Assembly (NCBI GenBank): GCA_963920705.1
Contig: OY987230.1
Location: forward strand, 7,821,185 to 7,885,184
From: Odiellus spinosus
Lineage: Eukaryota > Arthropoda > Arachnida > Opiliones > Phalangiidae
Direction: 5' to 3'
DNA length: 64,000 nucleotides
Shown here: positions 1-62,200 of the stretch, piece by piece
Layout of the letters: each line of letters begins with the position of its first letter
Numbering within the stretch: position 1 is the stretch's first letter
Translations under genes and position numbers: made by a program
Notes under the pieces: generated by a model
What the model was told of the DNA's origin: nothing
The model's database searches: none
What the model saw: the letters and a program-made list of their open reading frames with translations, nothing else

Positions 1-3000
1 AAAAAGTACGACCCGACAAATACACCCCCTGTAAAAAGTACGACGCGACAAATACACCCCCTGTAAAAAGTACGACCCGACAAATACACCCCCTGTAAAA
101 AGTACGACCCGACAAATACACCCCCTGTAAAAAGTACGACCCGACAAATACACCCCCTGTAAAAAGTACGACCCGACAAATACACCCCCTGTAAAAAGTA
201 CGACCCGACAAATACACCCCCTGTAAAAAGTACGACCCGACAAATACACCCCCTGTAAAAAGTACGACCCGACAAATACACCCCCTGTAAAAAGTACGAC
301 CCGACAAATACACCCCCTGTAAAAAGTACGACCCGACAAATACACCCCCTGTAAAAAGTACGACCCGACAAATACACCCCCTGTAAAAAGTACGACCCGA
401 CAAATACACCCCCTGTAAAAAGTACGACCCGACAAATACACCCCCTGTAAAAAGTACGACCCGACAAATACACCCCCGTAAAAAGTACGACCCGACAAAT
501 ACACCCCCTGTAAAAAGTACGACCCGACAAATACACCCCCTGTAAAAAGTGCGACCCGACAAATACACCCCCTGTAAAAAGTACGACCCGACAAATACAC
601 CCCCTGTAAAAAGTACGACCCGACAAATACACCCCCTGTAAAAAGGACGACCCGATAAATACACCCCCTGTAAAAAGGACGACCCGACAAATACACCCCC
701 TGTAAAAAGGACGACCCGATAAATACACCCCCTGTAAAAAGGACGACCCGACAAATACACCCCCTGTAAAAAGGACGACCCGACAAATACACCCCCTGTA
801 AAAAGGACGACCCGATAAATACACCCCCTGTAAAAAGGACGACCCGATAAATACACCCCCTGTAAAAAGGACGACCCGATAAATACACCCCCTGTAAAAA
901 GGACGACCCGATAAATACACCCCCTGTAAAAAGGACGACCCGATAAATACACCCCCTGTAAAAAGGACGACCCGATAAATACACCCCCTGTAAAAAGGAC
1001 GACCCGATAAATACACCCCCTGTAAAAAGGACGACCCGACAAATACACCCCCTGTAAAAAGGACGACCCGACAAATACATCCCCAGTAAAAAGGACGACC
1101 CGATAAATACACCCCCTGAAAAAAGGACGACCCGATAAATACACCCCCTGTAAAAAGTACGACCCGACAAATACACCCCCTGTAAAAAGTACGACCCGAC
1201 AAATACACCCCCTGTAAAAAGTACGACCCGACAAATACACCCCCTGTAAAAAGTACGACCCGACAAATACACCCCCTGTAAAAAGTAAGACCCGACAAAT
1301 ACACCCCCTGTAAAAAGTACGACCCGACAAATACACCCCCTGTAAAAAGTACGACCCGACAAATACACACCCTGTAAAAAGTACGACCCGACAAATACAC
1401 CCCCTGTAAAAAGGACGACCCGACAAATACACCCCCTGTAAAAAGGACGACCCGATAAATACACCCCCTGTAAAAAGGACGACCCGATAAATACACCCCC
1501 TGTAAAAAGGACGACCCGATAAATACACCCCCTGTAAAAAGGACGACCCGATAAATACACCCCCTGTAAAAAGGACGACCCGATAAATACACCCCCTGTA
1601 AAAAGGACGACACGATAAATACACCCCCTGTAAAAAGGACGACCCGATAAATACACCCCCTGTAAAAAGGACGACCCGATAAATACACCCCCTTTAAAAA
1701 GGACGACCCGATAAATACACCCCCTGTAAAAAGGACGACCCGATAAATACACCCCCTGTAAAAAGTACGACCCGACAAATACACCCCCTGTAAAAAGTAC
1801 GACCCGACAAATACACACCCTGTAAAAAGGACGACCCGACAAATACACCCCCTGTAAAAAGTACGACCCGACAAATACACCCCCTGTAAAAAGTACGACC
1901 CGACAAATACACCCCCTGTAAAAAGTACGACCCCGACAAATACACCCCCTGTAAAAAGTACGACCCGACAAATACACCCCCTGTAAAAAGTACGACCCGA
2001 CAAATACACCCCCTGTAAAAAGTACGACCCGACAAATACACCCCCTGAAAAAAGGACGACCCGACAAATACACCCCCTGTAAAAAGGACGACCCGATAAA
2101 TACACCCCCTGTAAAAAGGACGACCCGATAAATACACCCCCTGTAAAAAGGACGACCCGATAAATACACCCCCTGTAAAAAGGACGACCCGATAAATACA
2201 CCCCCTGTAAAAAGGACGACCCGATAAATACACCCCCTGTAAAAAGGACGACACGATAAATACACCCCCTGTAAAAAGGACGACCCGATAAATACACCCC
2301 CTGTAAAAAGGACGACCCGATAAATACACCCCCTGTAAAAAGGACGACCCGATAAATACACCCCCTGTAAAAAGGACGACCCGATAAATACACCCCCTGT
2401 AAAAAGTACGACCCGACAAATACACCCCCTGTAAAAAGTACGACCCGACAAATACACCCCCTGTAAAAAGGACGACCCGACAAATACACCCCCTGTAAAA
2501 AGGACGACCCGACAAATACATCCCCAGTAAAAAGGACGACCCGATAAATACACCCCCTGAAAAAAGGACGACCCGATAAATACACCCCCTGTAAAAAGGA
2601 CGACCCGACAAATACACCCCCTGTAAAAAGGACGACCCGACAAATACATCCCCAGTAAAAAGGACGACCCGATAAATACACCCCCTGAAAAAAGGACGAC
2701 CCGATAAATACACCCCCTGTAAAAAGGACGACCCGATAAATACACCCCCTGTAAAAAGGACGACCCGATAAATACACCCCCTGTAAAAAGGACGACCCGA
2801 TAAATACACCCCCTGTAAAAAGGACGACCCGATAAATACACCCCCTGTAAAAAGGACGACCCGATAAATACACCCCCTGTAAAAAGGACGACCCGATAAA
2901 TACACCCCCTGTAAAAAGGACGACCCGATAAATACACCCCCTGTAAAAAGGACGACCCGATAAATACACCCCCTGTAAAAGGACGACCCGATAAATACAC

Positions 3001-6000
3001 CCCCTGTAAAAAGGACGACCCGATAAATACACCCCCTGTAAAAAGGACGACCCGATAAATACACCCCCTGTAAAAAGGACGACCCGACAAATACACCCCC
3101 TGTAAAAAGGACGACCCGATAAATACACCCCCTGTAAAAAGGACGACCCGACAAATACACCCCCTGTAAAAAGGACGACCCGACAAATACACCCCCTGTA
3201 AAAAGGACGACCAGACAAATACACCCCCTGTAAAAAGGACGACCCGACACATACATCCCTTGTAAAAAGTACGACCCGACAAATACACCCCCTGTAAAAA
3301 GTACGACCCGACAAATACACCCCCTGTAAAAAGTACGACCCGACAAATACACCCCCTGTAAAAAGTACGACGCGACAAATACACCCCCTGTAAAAAGTAC
3401 GACGCGACAAATACACCCCCTGTAAAAAGTACGACCCGACAAATACACCCCCTGTAAAAAGTACGACCCGACAAATACACCCCCTGTAAAAAGTACGACC
3501 CGACAAATACACCCCCTGTAAAAAGTACGACCCGACAAATACACCCCCTGTAAAAAGTACGACCCGACAAATACACCCCCTGTAAAAAGTACGACCCGAC
3601 AAATACACCCCCTGTAAAAAGTACGACCCGACAAATACACCCCCTGTAAAAAGTACGACCCGACAAATACACCCCCTGTAAAAAGTACGACCCGACAAAT
3701 ACACCCCCTGTAAAAAGTACGACCCGACAAATACACCCCCTGTAAAAAGTACGACCCGACAAATACACCCCCTGTAAAAAGTACGACCCGACAAATACAC
3801 CCCCTGTAAAAAGTACGACCCGACAAATACACCCCCTGTAAAAAGTACGACCCGACAAATACACCCCCTGTAAAAAGTGCGACCCGACAAATACACCCCC
3901 TGTAAAAAGTACGACCCGACAAATACACCCCCTGTAAAAAGTACGACCCGACAAATACACCCCCTGTAAAAAGGACGACCCGATAAATACACCCCCTGTA
4001 AAAAGGACGACCCGACAAATACACCCCCTGTAAAAAGGACGACCCGATAAATACACCCCCTGTAAAAAGGACGACCCGACAAATACACCCCCTGTAAAAA
4101 GGACGACCCGACAAATACACCCCCTGTAAAAAGGACGACCCGATAAATACACCCCCTGTAAAAAGGACGACCCGATAAATACACCCCCTGTAAAAAGGAC
4201 GACCCGATAAATACACCCCCTGTAAAAAGGACGACCCGATAAATACACCCCCTGTAAAAAGGACGACCCGATAAATACACCCCCTGTAAAAAGGACGACC
4301 CGATAAATACACCCCCTGTAAAAAGGACGACCCGATAAATACACCCCCTGTAAAAAGGACGACCCGACAAATACACCCCCTGTAAAAAGGACGACCCGAC
4401 AAATACATCCCCAGTAAAAAGGACGACCCGATAAATACACCCCCTGAAAAAAGGACGACCCGATAAATACACCCCCTGTAAAAAGTACGACCCGACAAAT
4501 ACACCCCCTGTAAAAAGTACGACCCGACAAATACACCCCCTGTAAAAAGTACGACCCGACAAATACACCCCCTGTAAAAAGTACGACCCGACAAATACAC
4601 CCCCTGTAAAAAGTAAGACCCGACAAATACACCCCCTGTAAAAAGTACGACCCGACAAATACACCCCCTGTAAAAAGTACGACCCGACAAATACACACCC
4701 TGTAAAAAGTACGACACGACAAATACACCCCCTGTAAAAAGGACGACCCGACAAATACACCCCCTGTAAAAAGGACGACCCGATAAATACACCCCCTGTA
4801 AAAAGGACGACCCGATAAATACACCCCCTGTAAAAAGGACGACCCGATAAATACACCCCCTGTAAAAAGGACGACCCGATAAATACACCCCCTGTAAAAA
4901 GGACGACCCGATAAATACACCCCCTGTAAAAAGGACGACACGATAAATACACCCCCTGTAAAAAGGACGACCCGATAAATACACCCCCTGTAAAAAGTAC
5001 GACCCGACAAATACACCCCCTGAAAAAAGGACGACCCGACAAATACACCCCCTGTAAAAAGGACGACCCGATAAATACACCCCCTGTAAAAAGGACGACC
5101 CGATAAATACACCCCCTGTAAAAAGTACGACCCGACAAATACACCCCCTGTAAAAAGTACGACCCGACAAATACACCCCCTGTAAAAAGTACGACCCGAC
5201 AAATACACCCCCTGTAAAAAGGACGACCCGACAAATACACCCCCTGTAAAAAGGACGACCCGACAAATACACCCCCTGTAAAAAGGACGACCCGATAAAT
5301 ACACCCCCTGTAAAAAGGACGACCCGATAAATACACCCCCTGTAAAAAGGACGACCCGATAAATACACCCCCTGTAAAAAGTACGACCCGACAAATACAC
5401 CCCCTGTAAAAAGTACGACCCGACAAATACACCCCCTGTAAAAAGGACGACCCGACAAATACACCCCCTGTAAAAAGGACGACCCGACAAATACATCCCC
5501 AGTAAAAAGGACGACCCGATAAATACACCCCCTGAAAAAAGGACGACCCGATAAATACACCCCCTGTAAAAAGGACGACCCGACAAATACACCCCCTGTA
5601 AAAAGGACGACCCGACAAATACATCCCCAGTAAAAAGGACGACCCGATAAATACACCCCCTGAAAAAAGGACGACCCGATAAATACACCCCCTGTAAAAA
5701 GGACGACCCGATAAATACACCCCCTGTAAAAAGGACGACCCGATAAATACACCCCCTGTAAAAAGGACGACCCGATAAATACACCCCCTGTAAAAAGGAC
5801 GACCCGATAAATACACCCCCTGTAAAAAGGACGACCCGATAAATACACCCCCTGTAAAAAGGACGACCCGATAAATACACCCCCTGTAAAAAGGACGACC
5901 CGATAAATACACCCCCTGTAAAAAGGACGACCCGATAAATACACCCCCTGTAAAAAGGACGACCCGATAAATACACCCCCTGTAAAAAGGACGACCCGAT

Positions 6001-9000
6001 AAATACACCCCCTGTAAAAAGGACGACCCGATAAATACACCCCCTGTAAAAAGGACGACCCGACAAATACACCCCCTGTAAAAAGGACGACCCGATAAAT
6101 ACACCCCCTGTAAAAAGGACGACCCGACAAATACACCCCCTGTAAAAAGGACGACCCGACAAATACACCCCCTGTAAAAAGGACGACCAGACAAATACAC
6201 CCCCTGTAAAAAGGACGACCCGACACATACATCCCTTGTAAAAAGTACGACCCGACAAATACACCCCCTGTAAAAAGTACGACCCGACAAATACACCCCC
6301 TGTAAAAAGTACGACCCGACAAATACACCCCCTGTAAAAAGTACGACGCGACAAATACACCCCCTGTAAAAAGTACGACCCGACAAATACACCCCCTGTA
6401 AAAAGTACGACCCGACAAATACACCCCCTGTAAAAAGTACGACCCGACAAATACACCCCCTGTAAAAAGTACGACCCGACAAATACACCCCCTGTAAAAA
6501 GTACGACCCGACAAATACACCCCCTGTAAAAAGTACGACCCGACAAATACACCCCCTGTAAAAAGTACGACCCGACAAATACACCCCCTGTAAAAAGTAC
6601 GACCCGACAAATACACCCCCTGTAAAAAGTACGACCCGACAAATACACCCCCTGTAAAAAGTACGACCCGACAAATACACCCCCTGTAAAAAGTACGACC
6701 CGACAAATACACCCCCTGTAAAAAGTACGACCCGACAAATACACCCCCTGTAAAAAGTACGACCCGACAAATACACCCCCTGTAAAAAGTACGACCCGAC
6801 AAATACACCCCCTGTAAAAAGTACGACCCGACAAATACACCCCCTGTAAAAAGTACGACCCGACAAATACACCCCCTGTAAAAAGTACGACCCGACAAAT
6901 ACACCCCCTGTAAAAAGTACGACCCGACAAATACACCCCCTGTAAAAAGTACGACCCGACAAATACACCCCCTGTAAAAAGTACGACCCGACAAATACAC
7001 CCCCTGTAAAAAGTACGACCCGACAAATACACCCCCTGTAAAAAGTACGACCCGACAAATACACCCCCTGTAAAAAGGACGACCCGACAAATACACCCCC
7101 TGTAAAAAGGACGACCCGACAAATACACCCCCTGTAAAAAGGACGACCCGATAAATACACCCCCTGTAAAAAGGACGACCCGATAAATACACCCCCTGTA
7201 AAAAGGACGACCCGATAAATACACCCCTTGTAAAAAGGACGACCCGATAAATACACCCCCTGTAAAAAGGACGACCCGATAAATACACCCCCTGTAAAAA
7301 GGACGACCCGATAAATACACCACCTGTAAAAAGTAAGACCCGATAAATACACCCCCTGTAAAAAAGGACGACCCGATAAATACACCCCCTGTAAAAAGGA
7401 CGACCCGATAAATACACCCCCTGTAAAAAGGACGACCCGATAAATACACCCCTGTAAAAAGGACGACCCGACAAATACACCCCCTGTAAAAAGGACGACC
7501 CGATAAATACACCCCCTGTAAAAAGGACGACCCGACAAATACACCCCCTGTAAAAAGGACGACCCGACAAATACACCCCCTGTAAAAAGGACGACCAGAC
7601 AAATACACCCCCTGTAAAAAGGACGACCCGACAAATACATCCCCTGTAAAAAGTACGACCCGACAAATACACCCCCTGTAAAAAGTACGACCCGACAAAT
7701 ACACCCCCTGTAAAAAGTACGACCCGACAAATACACCCCCTGTAAAAAGTACGACGCGACAAATACACCCCCTGTAAAAAGTACGACCCGACAAATACAC
7801 CCCCTGTAAAAAGTACGACCCGACAAATACACCCCCTGTAAAAAGTACGACCCGACAAATACACCCCCTGTAAAAAGTACGACCCGACAAATACACCCAC
7901 TGTAAAAAGTACGACCCGACAAATACACCCCCTGTAAAAAGTACGACCCGACAAATACACCCCCTGTAAAAAGTACGACCCGACAAATACACCCCCTGTA
8001 AAAAGTACGACCCGACAAATACACCCCCTGTAAAAAGTACGACCCGACAAATACACCCCCTGTAAAAAGTACGACCCGACAAATACACCCCCTGTAAAAA
8101 GTACGACCCGACAAATACACCCCCTGTAAAAAGTACGACCCGACAAATACACCCCCTGTAAAAAGTACGACCCGACAAATACACCCCCTGTAAAAAGTAC
8201 GACCCGACAAATACACCCCCTGTAAAAAGTACGACCCGACAAATACACCCCCTGTAAAAAGTACGACCCGACAAATACACCCCCTGTAAAAAGTACGACC
8301 CGACAAATACACCCCCTGTAAAAAGTACGACCCGACAAATACACCCCCTGTAAAAAGTACGACCCGACAAATACACCCCCTGTAAAAAGTACGACCCGAC
8401 AAATACACCCCCTGTAAAAAGTACGACCCGACAAATACACCCCCTGTAAAAAGTACGACCCGACAAATACACCCCCTGTAAAAAGTACGACCCGACAAAT
8501 ACACCCCCTGTAAAAAGTACGACCCGACAAATACACCCCCTGTAAAAAGTACGACCCGACAAATACACCCCCTGTAAAAAGTACGACCCGACAAATACAC
8601 CCCCTGTAAAAAGTACGACCCGACAAATACACCCCCTGTAAAAAGTACGACCCGACAAATACACCCCCTGTAAAAAGTACGACCCGACAAATACACCCCC
8701 TGTAAAAAGTACGACCCGACAAATACACCCCCTGTAAAAAGGACGACCCGACAAATACACCCCCTGTAAAAAGGACGACCCGACAAATACACCCCCTGTA
8801 AAAAGGACGACCCGATAAATACACCCCCTGTAAAAAGGACGACCCGACAAATACACCCCCTGTAAAAAGGACGACCCGATAAATACACCCCCTGTAAAAA
8901 GGACGACCCGATAAATACACCCCCTGTAAAAACGACGACCCGATAAATACACCCCTTGTAAAAAGGACGACCCGATAAATACACCCCCTGTAAAAACGAC

Positions 9001-9084
9001 GACCCGATAAATACACCCCCTGTAAAAAGGACGACCCGATAAATACACCACCTGTAAAAAGTAAGACCCGATAAATACACCCCC
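1..9084. repeat. 32-bp satellite array (about 284 units)
   Basis: A head-to-tail 32-bp unit fills the window from its first base, so the array continues to the left. Two diagnostic versions dominate: GTACGACCCGAC and GGACGACCCGAT (positions 7 and 18 of the unit change together). They occur in long alternating blocks. Rare private variants (ACATCCCCAGT, GTAAGACCC, GACACGATAAA, ACACACCCTG) recur at fixed distances, which shows block duplication inside the array. The unit has no stop codon in any minus-strand frame, so a 2440-codon minus reading frame (1694-9016) is unavoidable. Its protein would be a hydrophobic 32-residue repeat and is not credible as a gene. Pericentromeric or subtelomeric location is possible but not shown. 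Confidence 0.97.
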
Positions 9085-10422
9085 GTTGAAAAAAATAACA
9101 GACCCGTTGGAAGTAACAGACCCGTTGGAAGTAACAGACCCGTTGGAAATAACAGACCCGTTTTAAATAACAGACCCGTTGGAAATAACAGGCCCGTTGG
9201 AAATAACAGGCCCGTTGGAAATAACAGGCCCGTTGGAAATAACAGGCCCGTTGGAAATAACAGGCCCGTTGGAAATAACAGGCCCGTTGGAAATAACAGA
9301 CCCGTTGGAAATAACAGACCCGTTGGAAATAACAGACCCGTTGGAAATAACAGACCCGTTGGAAATAACAGACCCGTTTAAAAATAACAGACCCGTTTAA
9401 AAATAACAGACCCGTTTAAAAATAACAGACCCGTTTGAAAATAACAGACCCGTTTGAAAATAACAGACCCGTTTGAAAATAACAGACCCGTTTGAAAATA
9501 ACAGACCCGTTTGAAAATAACAGACCCGTTTGAAAATAACAGACCCGTTTGAAAATAACAGACCCGTTTGAAAATAACAGACCCGTTTGAAAATAACAGA
9601 CCCGTTTGAAAATAACAGACCCGTTTGAAAATAACAGACCCGTTTGAAAATAACAGACCCGTTTGAAAATAACAGACCCGTTTGAAAATAACAGACCCGT
9701 TTGAAAATAACAGACCCGTTTGAAAATAACAGACCCGTTTGAAAATAACAGACCCGTTTGAAAATAACAGACCCGTTTGAAAATAACAGACCCGTTTGAA
9801 AATAACAGACCCGTTTGAAAATAACAGACCCGTTTGAAAATAACAGACCCGTTTGAAAATAACAGACCCGTTTGAAAATAACAGACCCGTTTGAAAATAA
9901 CAGACCCGTTTGAAAATAACAGACCCGTTTGAAAATAACAGACCCGTTTGAAAATAACAGACCCGTTTGAAAATAACAGACCCGTTTGAAAATAAAAGAC
10001 CCGTTTGAAAATAAAAGACCCGTTTGAAAATAAAAGACCCGTTTGAAAATAAAAGACCCGTTTGAAAATAAAAGACCCGTTTGAAAATAAAAGACCCGTT
10101 TGAAAATAAAAGACCCGTTTGAAAATAAAAGACCCGTTTGAAAATAAAAGACCCGTTTGAAAATAAAAGACCCGTTTGAAAATAAAAGACCCGTTTGAAA
10201 ATAAAAGACCCGTTTGAAAATAAAAGACCCGTTTGAAAATAAAAGACCCGTTTGAAAATAAAAGACCCGTTTGAAAATAAAAGACCCGTTTGAAAATAAA
10301 AGACCCGTTTGAAAATAAAAGACCCGTTTGAAAATAAAAGACCCGTTTGAAAATAAAAGACCCGTTTGAAAATAAAAGACCCGTTGAAAATAAAAGACCC
10401 GTTGAAAATAAAAGACCCGTTG
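9085..10422. repeat. 18/19-bp satellite array with three successive variants
   Basis: This second tandem array abuts the 32-bp satellite directly. It runs from an 18-bp unit (GTTGGAAATAACAGACCC, with an AACAGGCCC sub-block near 9186-9295) to a 19-bp unit (GTTTGAAAATAACAGACCC, from about 9378). From about 9994 a 19-bp unit with AAAAGA in place of AACAGA takes over, with a few 18-bp units at the end. There are roughly 70 units. Both satellites share the core GACCCG. The reading frames here (9179-9400 plus, 9378-10550 minus) are by-products of the repeat. Confidence 0.96.
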
Positions 10423-59200: not shown

Positions 59201-62200
59201 ATTAAAGGGAAACGGGAACAGATTTTGAATTTATTTTGTAATCACCATGGCAAAAAAAAAAAAAAAAAAAAAAAAAAAACAAATTCGAGGATTTTCAAAA
59301 GAATTATTAGACACTTCTTTGGTGTTTAAATTTAAATTAAATCAAAGTCAAATAGAGTCCAATATCTCTAAATGCAAATATAAATTCTGACCAATCATAT
59401 TATTTCAGCCTTCAACTGCGCTAGCAATGTCCTAACCTTTGATGCCTAAGACCTCAGGCATATTCTTTGGACATTACAAGCGCATTTGAAGGCTGAAATA
59501 ATATGATTGGCCCGAATTTATATTTACTTTTATTCAAACTTTACCAAACTTTAGAAATTAAGTTAAACACGAAAAACGTGCCTAAAAATTGTGAAAAAAA
59601 CAAATCTCGAATACGTTTTGTTGGCATCCGGTGATTCCGAAAATAAATTCAAAAAGCTGTTCCATTTTTAGCTCTCTTTAAATGTCAAAATAATAATATC
59701 TATCTGGCATATTTAAATAGCAAGTGGATAAAATTTTTAAGAATCATTTTCTGGAAGGTTTCAATTAGTACGAATAATTCCGCAAGCTAGAGATCACGGC
59801 TCATGCTTCCCGCTTCGTTTAAATGTATATTTAAATAAATCAGAAACTATAAGTAGTAGACAAGAAACCAGTATAAGGAGAGACGCTCTGTAGCTCAAGA
59901 TGTCCCGAATGAATTAAACGTCTGTCGAACCAATCAGAGACGCGAGAGCAGGGGCGTCAACCACACTCGACTGTCAAACCTGGGGTAAGTGAGCCCCTTA
60001 TACTTTGGCCTTCTTCAACCTGTTCAGCGGCCGATCCACTTAAAAATAACTTCCGACGGCCTTGCGAGAGAGCGAGAATTGCTTTCCCGGTAAAAAATAT
60101 TGCAAGTCATTCAACGGCTCTCACAAAATAATCGTCGTTGGTCCATATATACAATCGGGAATTTATCCACCGAAGTGTAGGTCTTAAAACCGCGACCGAA
60201 ATGAAGATTTTCAACATAGGTGGTTCCTGCGTAAAGTTTTTGTATCTAAATGTTTTTTAGGGTTAGATGTTTCGAGTTAAATCATTTTAGGTGTTAAGTT
60301 ATTCGAGTTAAATGGTTTTCGCGTTAAATAGACGGCGAGCTTAATTAATCTAAAAATCTAGTTAGCACGCTGCGTTTTAAAAAGAAAATCTAGTATAATT
60401 ATTTTGATGGTACAAAAGCCAATACGCGGGGGCCTTTGAGGTGTGTGTAAAACATATAAGAAAAGAACAACCCAAACTGCCCATAGGAATTTGGGTAACG
60501 TAATGTTAAAATTTTTTGTTTCGCCACTGGTAAAATTTTATTGTGATAGTAAACTAGGGTTGTGTCCTCACCTTTCTACCACAAAAATAATCATTTAACC
60601 ATTATAGTCTGCGAATACAAATTAATTGAAGTTTAGCTCGATAATGTTAAAGATAGGCCACATCGTTGGATTCGACAATGGAGTAGACTGTCTTCCCCCA
60701 CCTGAAATCAGTTGAAATTTTGAATATTAGTAGACACACGATAGATAAAGATTCTGGGAAAATATCGTTTTGTAACTGCCATGGGATTTTTCTCAGCAAC
60801 GATTTAAATTACCCAGAATTTTGACATAATTTGAGGTGCGGAAGCCCAAAATGCCTGTAAAAGTGTTCAACCTGCCGAACAACAAAGTTTTGCAGAAAAG
60901 CAAATTCAAGGAGCGAGGCACAGACTATACAGCTAACTCGTATAGTCTTTGTGTTCTGAAAAAACAAAGAGAAATAACACCGCAAAAGTATACTGTAGTG
61001 GTTTTTATTAAGAAACACATTATTAATAATTCGACGAAAAATAACAATTTTAGTGGCATTATATTTCAAACAATGTGGAAAAAGACCTAATTCGTGTTCG
61101 CGTAGGGAGTCAGTTCTCAGCCTCAGCCACGCATCAGGCTTTGATTCGATACATTCCTAATGGTATCGGGATTGATTCAGTTATTTCATGGTATTGCAAC
61201 TGTAAAGGAGGGAACTTGACCATCAGAACTTGTGCTCACGTTAGCAGCCTTATTTGGTGCCTGGGCTATAAACGACACGAAGATAGAGGTAGCTGGTATC
61301 AATATTGCGTGCAGTCTGCGACGATGCCGGTGATTTGGACGATTTACCTAACATTGTTTGAAATATAATGCCACTAAAATTGTTATTTTTCGTCGAATTA
61401 CTAATAATGTGTTTTTTAATAAAAACCACTACAGTATACTTTTGCGGTGTTATTTCTCTTTGTTTTTTCAGAACACAAAGACTATACGAGTTAGCTGTAT
61501 AGTCTGTGCCTAGCTCCTTGAATTTGCTTTGCTACAAAACTTTGTTGTTCGGCAGGTTGAACACTTTTACAGGCATTTTGGGCTTCCGCACCTCAAATTA
61601 TGTCAAAATTCTGGATAATTTAAATCGTTGCTGAGAAAAATCTCATAGCAGTTACAAAACGGTATTTTCCCAGAATCTTTATCTATCGTGTGTCTACTAA
61701 TATTCAAAATTTCAACTGATTTCAGGTGGGGGAAGACAGTCTACTCCATTGTCGAATCCAACGATGTGGCCTATCTTTAACATTATCGAGCTAAACTTCA
61801 ATTAATTTGTATTCGCACACTATAATGGTTAAATGATTATTTTTGTGGTAGAAAGGTGAGGACACAACCCTAGTTTACTATCACAATAAAATTTTACCAG
61901 TGGCGAAACAAAAAATTTTAACATTACGTTACCCAAATTCCTATGGGCAGTTTGGGTTGTTCTTTCACGTAGACCCCTTGCCTTTGACAGTGACAGAGGC
62001 GGCGGACAAGAGCATGAGCAATATAGTAACTCAAAACTAGTCTGGCGTAACTAAAAATGGCCTTACTGATTTCTTGTTTATTGAAAGTTTCTGATAATAT
62101 TAAATTATGTATAAAAGGGAAATTGGAAACGCAAAAAAAAGTAATATTTAACAACCTCAGACTTTTGCATTTCTTTTCCCGTTTTGAGGATAAATAATTA

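Follow-up and report, generated by a model that had tools for sequence, protein, structure and literature searches.

A non-autonomous foldback family of probable Spy type in Odiellus spinosus and its long foldback relatives

Introduction

The Foldback (FB) and Tetris foldback elements of Drosophila have long inverted arms and a small middle, and the arms of FB are internally repetitive. SWIM zinc fingers are carried by the MULE and KDZ superfamilies, which have transposase types of their own and make target duplications of 8–9 bp; target duplications are also made by Galileo. For this last element, a member of the P superfamily in Drosophila, it has been proposed that the arms lengthened when one end was copied over the other (PMC3573991). 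Spy elements, which belong to the PIF/Harbinger-ISL2EU-Spy (PHIS) superfamily, are described as inserting between AAA and TTT without duplication (PMC4482050, PMC11304231), with a reported arm length of 5–691 bp (PMC11304231).

The window analysed here is a stretch of 64,000 nucleotides from Odiellus spinosus (Arachnida; Opiliones; GenBank assembly GCA_963920705.1, contig OY987230.1, positions 7,821,185–7,885,184), which contains a large foldback element near its right end. A first-pass annotation, made from the sequence alone, had read the element as a non-autonomous foldback transposon with a captured SWIM zinc-finger fragment and knew no named insect family of this make-up; the named group that fits it is Spy.

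Results and Discussion

Structure of the foldback element

The two near-identical inverted arms first reported (614 bp each, around a 276-bp spacer) are real: they lie at 60462–61076 and 61351–61965, measure 615 bp each, are 98% complementary with 10 substitutions and no indels between them, and enclose a spacer of 274 bp. Because the comparison with empty sites (see below) assigns AAA at 60462–60464 and TTT at 61963–61965 to the target, both are excluded from the element, which thus spans 60465–61962 with arms of 612 bp (Table 1). The spacer is protein-like in the way the annotation had described, with an open reading frame (ORF) at 61054–61368 that contains ...SWYCNCKGGNLTIRTCAHVSSLIWCLGYKRHE....

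Table 1. Features of the foldback element, in positions of the window.
Feature	Positions	Strand	Basis or remark
AAA, left half of the AAATTT target site	60462..60464	.	AAA at 24/26 left ends; empty sites point to host bases
Left arm with terminus GAACAACCCAAACTGCC; repeats the transposase 3' end and 3' UTR in inverted orientation	60465..61076	+	
GT, 2-bp match where a deletion is proposed to have joined left arm and coding relic	61075..61076	+	Comparison of C9, stop region and window
Spacer, C-terminal transposase relic	61077..61350	+	278 bp in the majority; 4 bp fewer, with a frameshift, in the window copy
SWIM-like CxC...CxH motif in the relic	61195..61239	+	Invariant in three aligned sequences; read by eye
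Right arm: last transposase codons, stop, 3' UTR, then terminus	61351..61962	-	
TTT, right half of the AAATTT target site	61963..61965	.	TTT at 26/26 right ends; empty sites

Elsewhere in the window, a small inverted repeat with 67-bp arms (88%) occupies 59369–59532; the stretch that holds it (59293–59674) matches several of the fetched loci and stands beside the foldback in L017, L022, and L036. Positions 1–10421 consist of two abutting minisatellites, one with a 32-bp unit repeated 284 times (1–9084; 97% matches), which yields a spurious ORF of 2573 aa, and one with a 19-bp unit repeated 71 times (9092–10421).

Dispersal of the family and age of its arms

In the 443-Mb genome the arm has at least 42 matches at 98–100% (best 40 of 525 candidates scored) and the spacer at least 40 at 96–100% (best 40 of 949 candidates scored), and this genome-wide recurrence of both excludes a chance origin of the arms. 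For comparison, 33 loci (L009–L041) were picked for their arm matches, including the window's own (L041) and one locus twice (L032 and L034). Both ends are present in 26 of these, or in 25 separate places once L032 and L034, a single locus found on two contigs, are counted together; the two-ended counts omit six loci in which one end is missing (L011, L014, L019, L020, L033, L038) and a cut copy (L027). Spacer sequence of the family, whole or partial, occurs in 31 of the 33, and the junction between left arm and spacer is common, within a few mismatches, to 29 of them, the window's own included (it is lacking in L012, L024, L027, and L033). Because the copies share this junction and their ends, the element in the window belongs to one dispersed mobile family with a single founder structure. 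A search with the arm, as proposed in the first-pass annotation, thus bears out its reading of a non-autonomous foldback transposon. Long inverted repeats can arise in assemblies, and the same annotation had allowed for a local inverted duplication or an assembly artefact; 25 separate places carrying both ends in different flanks refute either origin, which we regard as barely conceivable.

Two loci in this set are unusual in other respects. The insertion and flanks of L032 and L034 are identical on the two contigs (C224 and C45), which are probably duplicate haplotype contigs in the assembly. In L010 (1848–3171), a segment of approximately 1.3 kb, bordered on each side by the same 7 bp of arm sequence, breaks one arm of the foldback copy and is a probable nested insertion.

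Across 21 elements (a set that keeps both L032 and L034; L032 was dropped from the spacer and arm-difference counts), mean arm identity is 97.96% within an element and 97.63% between elements. As identity within elements barely exceeds that between them, left and right arms are not distinguishable from each other, and the arms of the founder were already alike, with little or no homogenisation since and drift afterwards. These values speak against recent gene conversion of the window arms, and the earlier view of an element recently formed or gene-converted is not supported. Some copies moved after the main burst, as L021 and L022 are identical in one arm (100%) and nearly so in the other (99.2%) and have different flanks.

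Target site and insertion

All two-ended copies start with AAAGAACAACCC or nearly so, and the termini are sharp, with differing flanks on either side. In a set of 26 elements (the 25 separate two-ended places plus L042, a longer relative described below; L034 was left out), AAA is found at 24 of the left ends and TTT at all 26 of the right ends. Exact repeats of at least 2 bp outside AAA/TTT (lengths of 2–12 bp were tested) flank 2 of the 26 elements (L009 and L013, 2 bp in each), a share close to that among mismatched flank pairs (41 of 650). Empty sites were sought by matching the joined flanks to paralogous copies without the element; nine elements gave junction-spanning matches, of which eight were aligned and one (L013, a 68% match) was not. 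An exact AAATTT empty site was recovered for L009 and for L026, the latter inside a tandem array, and near-matching sites with one or more differences for L010, L015, and L018; for the remaining three of the eight (L022, L023, L040) the comparison is not clean. On the strength of the end counts, the flank test, and the empty sites, AAA and TTT are most likely host bases, and the family as a rule inserts between them without target duplication. In L031 the element is directly flanked by a 28-bp direct repeat with one mismatch (3473–3500 and 5009–5036), for which a target duplication and an older tandem repeat cannot be told apart. The alignment of copies had originally been meant to reveal target duplications and a longer autonomous relative: longer relatives were found, and duplication was not.

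A transposase-bearing relative and the identity of the spacer

On C16, inserted in a Helitron-type gene, lies a relative of 4732 bp (L042) with arms of 1733 bp that have no substitutions and one 3-bp indel between them. Its 752-aa ORF matches DDE_Tnp_4 at 7e-19, above the cut-off, and HTH_Tnp_4 below the cut-off; apart from this ORF and its own inverted partial copy, the element has only ORFs of at most 112 aa. Comparison of L042 with L043, which stands at a different place, gave 100% identity over 3976 bp, and this relative therefore moved very recently. The L042 transposase has 2101 candidate matches in the genome, and the best 60, which were scored, are full-length and 98–100% identical, 34 with no internal stop and 26 with one.

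The spacer of the window element aligns with the C-terminal end of the L042 ORF at 69% DNA identity, and CxC...CxH is invariant across three aligned protein C-termini. The label 'SWIM-like' refers to this motif as read by eye, which Pfam does not recognise as SWIM: no family was found for the spacer and arm ORFs, no SWIM profile was matched by fragments of the window, L042, and L045, of which the C-terminal fragments matched no family at all, and a window fragment gave a single match to DUF282 below the cut-off. NCBIfam returned only matches below the cut-off, and a search of solved structures returned one match (E 0.93). The spacer is a dead relic of the transposase C-terminus, comprising approximately its last 90 codons. 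Among 26 spacers (from the 33 loci, omitting L024, L026, L027, L032, L033, L035, and L038), differences from the majority sequence amount to 1.01%, or 0.95, 0.95, and 1.13% by codon phase; a stop interrupts the coding frame in 11 of the 26, and a 4-bp deletion shifts the frame of the window copy. The lack of a marked codon-phase bias, these stops, and this frameshift rule out a coding role for the spacer. Capture of a SWIM gene from the host is likewise ruled out, as the counterpart of the fragment first described as captured is the C-terminal end of a DDE_Tnp_4 transposase encoded in this genome. The spacer had also been taken for a relic of a transposase-associated gene of the parent; a parental relic it is, from the transposase itself according to the L042 alignment.

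Assignment to Spy

Insertion between AAA and TTT, the lack of a duplication, a transposase of DDE_Tnp_4 type, and a single ORF (the last two in L042, where the ORF is intact) all match the description of Spy, and on these four grounds we assign the element to a new non-autonomous foldback family of Spy, from an unusual, perhaps palindromic, lineage. The CxC...CxH motif had suggested MULE or KDZ relatives, and a SWIM-bearing foldback of either superfamily would account for it; this identity is contradicted by the DDE_Tnp_4 transposase of the relative, the empty sites, and the flank test, which gave no 8–9 bp duplication, and we hold it to be very improbable. A derivation from another PIF/Harbinger-related group (ISL2EU, Pangu, or Nuwa), in which the target duplication has been lost or gone unrecognised, is harder to dismiss and still improbable. 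These groups have related DDE transposases, the DDE_Tnp_4 type being described as superfamily-wide, and the ISL2EU target, A|AT|T, is similar in composition, but ISL2EU is also described as making AT duplications and mostly carrying a second ORF with a YqaJ domain (PMC4482050), whereas here no duplication was found and L042 has no second long ORF besides its own inverted partial copy.

The window arms of 612 bp lie inside the arm range reported for Spy, whereas the 1733-bp arms of L042 exceed it, and relatives with arms of at least 1.7 kb carry transposase sequence in them, up to an element with twin genes. The family also differs from Spy as described in being a short foldback without a transposase, with relatives that have a SWIM-like C-terminus. 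The word 'SWIM' does not occur in the main text, nor 'foldback' in the available text, of PMC4482050 and PMC11304231, and, among the papers listed in a literature search, none combined foldbacks with Spy or linked SWIM with Spy. The resemblance to FB and Tetris, by description only, lies in the long inverted arms and small middle, and FB is set apart, also by description, by its internally repetitive arms. Galileo belongs to another superfamily. As described, it likewise has foldback-like arms that vary in length and have taken up internal sequence (TIR1-F1-F1-TIR2), and two-arm non-autonomous copies, but its longest arms occur in copies without a transposase ORF (PMC3573991), whereas the long-armed copies here keep an open ORF.

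Proposed origin from a longer foldback

We infer that the window element arose when a long foldback of a sister family underwent an internal deletion. The starting point would have been a longer foldback Spy element with an inverted copy of the 3' part of the transposase gene on its other side, and both ends of the present element are copies of one terminus, that downstream of the transposase stop codon. The middle would have been lost in an asymmetric internal deletion whose edges met at a 2-bp match (GT), leaving the last ~90 codons as the spacer, and a single founder would then have been multiplied in trans by a Spy transposase inserting between AAA and TTT. Taken as a whole, this account of a non-autonomous Spy-type foldback, produced by deletion from a longer foldback and amplified in trans by an enzyme-supplying family, is in our judgement very probably correct.

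Such an origin predicts uninterrupted transposase sequence before the spacer start elsewhere in the genome, and a 23-base pattern from the spacer start, without the arm's T, is found at 92 places (reversed control, 0). Neighbours within 6 kb of one another form 22 pairs, of which 20 are oriented '-+', one '--', one '++', and none '+-'. The pair on C9 (C9:635904–640442), read in part as L044, L045, and L046 with 339 bp of one arm left out, belongs to a copy 94–95% like the window family, with a transposase broken by a stop and a frameshift and apparently missing its start. Its arms have 2 differences over the inner 1195 bp (99.8% alike) and 9 over the outer 407 bp (Fisher p 1.4e-4), and because these rates differ the arms appear to be a mosaic in age, in keeping with later copying or conversion of the inner part. 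None of the copies found is identical to the parent, the C9 copy being ~5% diverged.

At the junction, the right side of C9 reads GCCAAGTGGAAAAAG, the stop region, on the reverse strand, reads CAAACAATGTTAGG, and the window reads CAAACAATGTGGAAAAAG. The window junction, CAAACAAT-GT-GGAAAAAG, is compatible with a left arm (CAAACAATGTTAGG) joined to a right arm (GCCAAGTGGAAAAAG) at GT; a match of 2 bp is weak evidence, and may hint at such a joint.

Head-to-head relatives

A 31-base C-terminal tag of the L042 family has 634 exact matches in the genome, 325 on one strand and 309 on the other. Among the first 100 matches listed, 90 form 45 pairs, all of them '-+', and 10 are unpaired; the pairs have 40 distinct spacings, from 328 to 4136 bp. 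The stretch so listed holds eight elements represented among the 60 full-length matches scored; all eight are foldbacks, five of them without internal stops.

These pairs bear on a different route, by which the short foldback would have formed directly from a simple Spy monomer, its 3' end being copied over the left end without any longer foldback. It would lead to the same product, a comparable mechanism has been put forward for arm extension in Galileo (PMC3573991), and for 48 of the 92 pattern places no other exact match lies within 6 kb. The predominance of '-+' pairs, at 20 of 22 for the pattern and 90 of 100 listed tags, speaks against a monomer source, as does the fact that the DNA read (all of L042, parts of L043 and C9, and 200 bp of C1) contained no monomer whose left end differs, and this route seems to us unlikely.

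Returning to derivation from a long foldback, two head-to-head full-length pairs occur among the 60 transposase matches scored, one on C1 (25506503–25511183; 175 bp apart, no stops) and one on C15 (2398797–2403525; 223 bp apart, one stop in each copy). The longest listed tag pair is the twin-transposase element on C1, which is mirror-symmetric at its centre: over the 200 bp read there, the only centre read, symmetry about AAAGAC|GTCTTT is complete apart from one indel. L042 retains a 22-bp palindrome at the point that matches this centre, and for a full palindrome the values computed from L042 are 176 for the ORF gap and 4143 for the tag spacing, close to the 175 and 4136 observed on C1; the gap on C15 differs by 48 bp. 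The fit of gap and spacing, the symmetry of C1, and the pair pattern together suggest a palindromic dimer of ~5974 bp eroded by central deletions. Alternatively, a monomer could have carried the 22-bp palindrome natively, with folding starting at that point.

We propose tentatively, as a reading with slightly less than an even chance of being right, that the master form of this Spy lineage would be a near-perfect palindrome of ~6 kb, in which two complete transposase genes face each other head to head across a centre of zero length (AAAGAC|GTCTTT) and share a promoter region, and both ends are identical, and that it would transpose as such. Its instability would leave nearly every copy with a central deletion of its own, so that the foldbacks form a continuous series, and short stable foldbacks, including the window family from a sister palindrome, would then multiply as a class of their own. 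Among the papers listed in a literature search, none was relevant to twin-transposase palindromes.

Implications

The present analysis assigns a foldback that seemed to defy classification to a known superfamily, and offers a concrete possible route for the origin of foldbacks, namely an inverted-dimer transposon eroding from its centre. A palindrome with twin genes raises the question of how it is replicated, and of whether its transcripts trigger RNA silencing. If the palindrome reading is true, each copy would be a natural record of a palindrome-deletion event, and hundreds of junctions could show directly how unstable long palindromes are in an animal genome.
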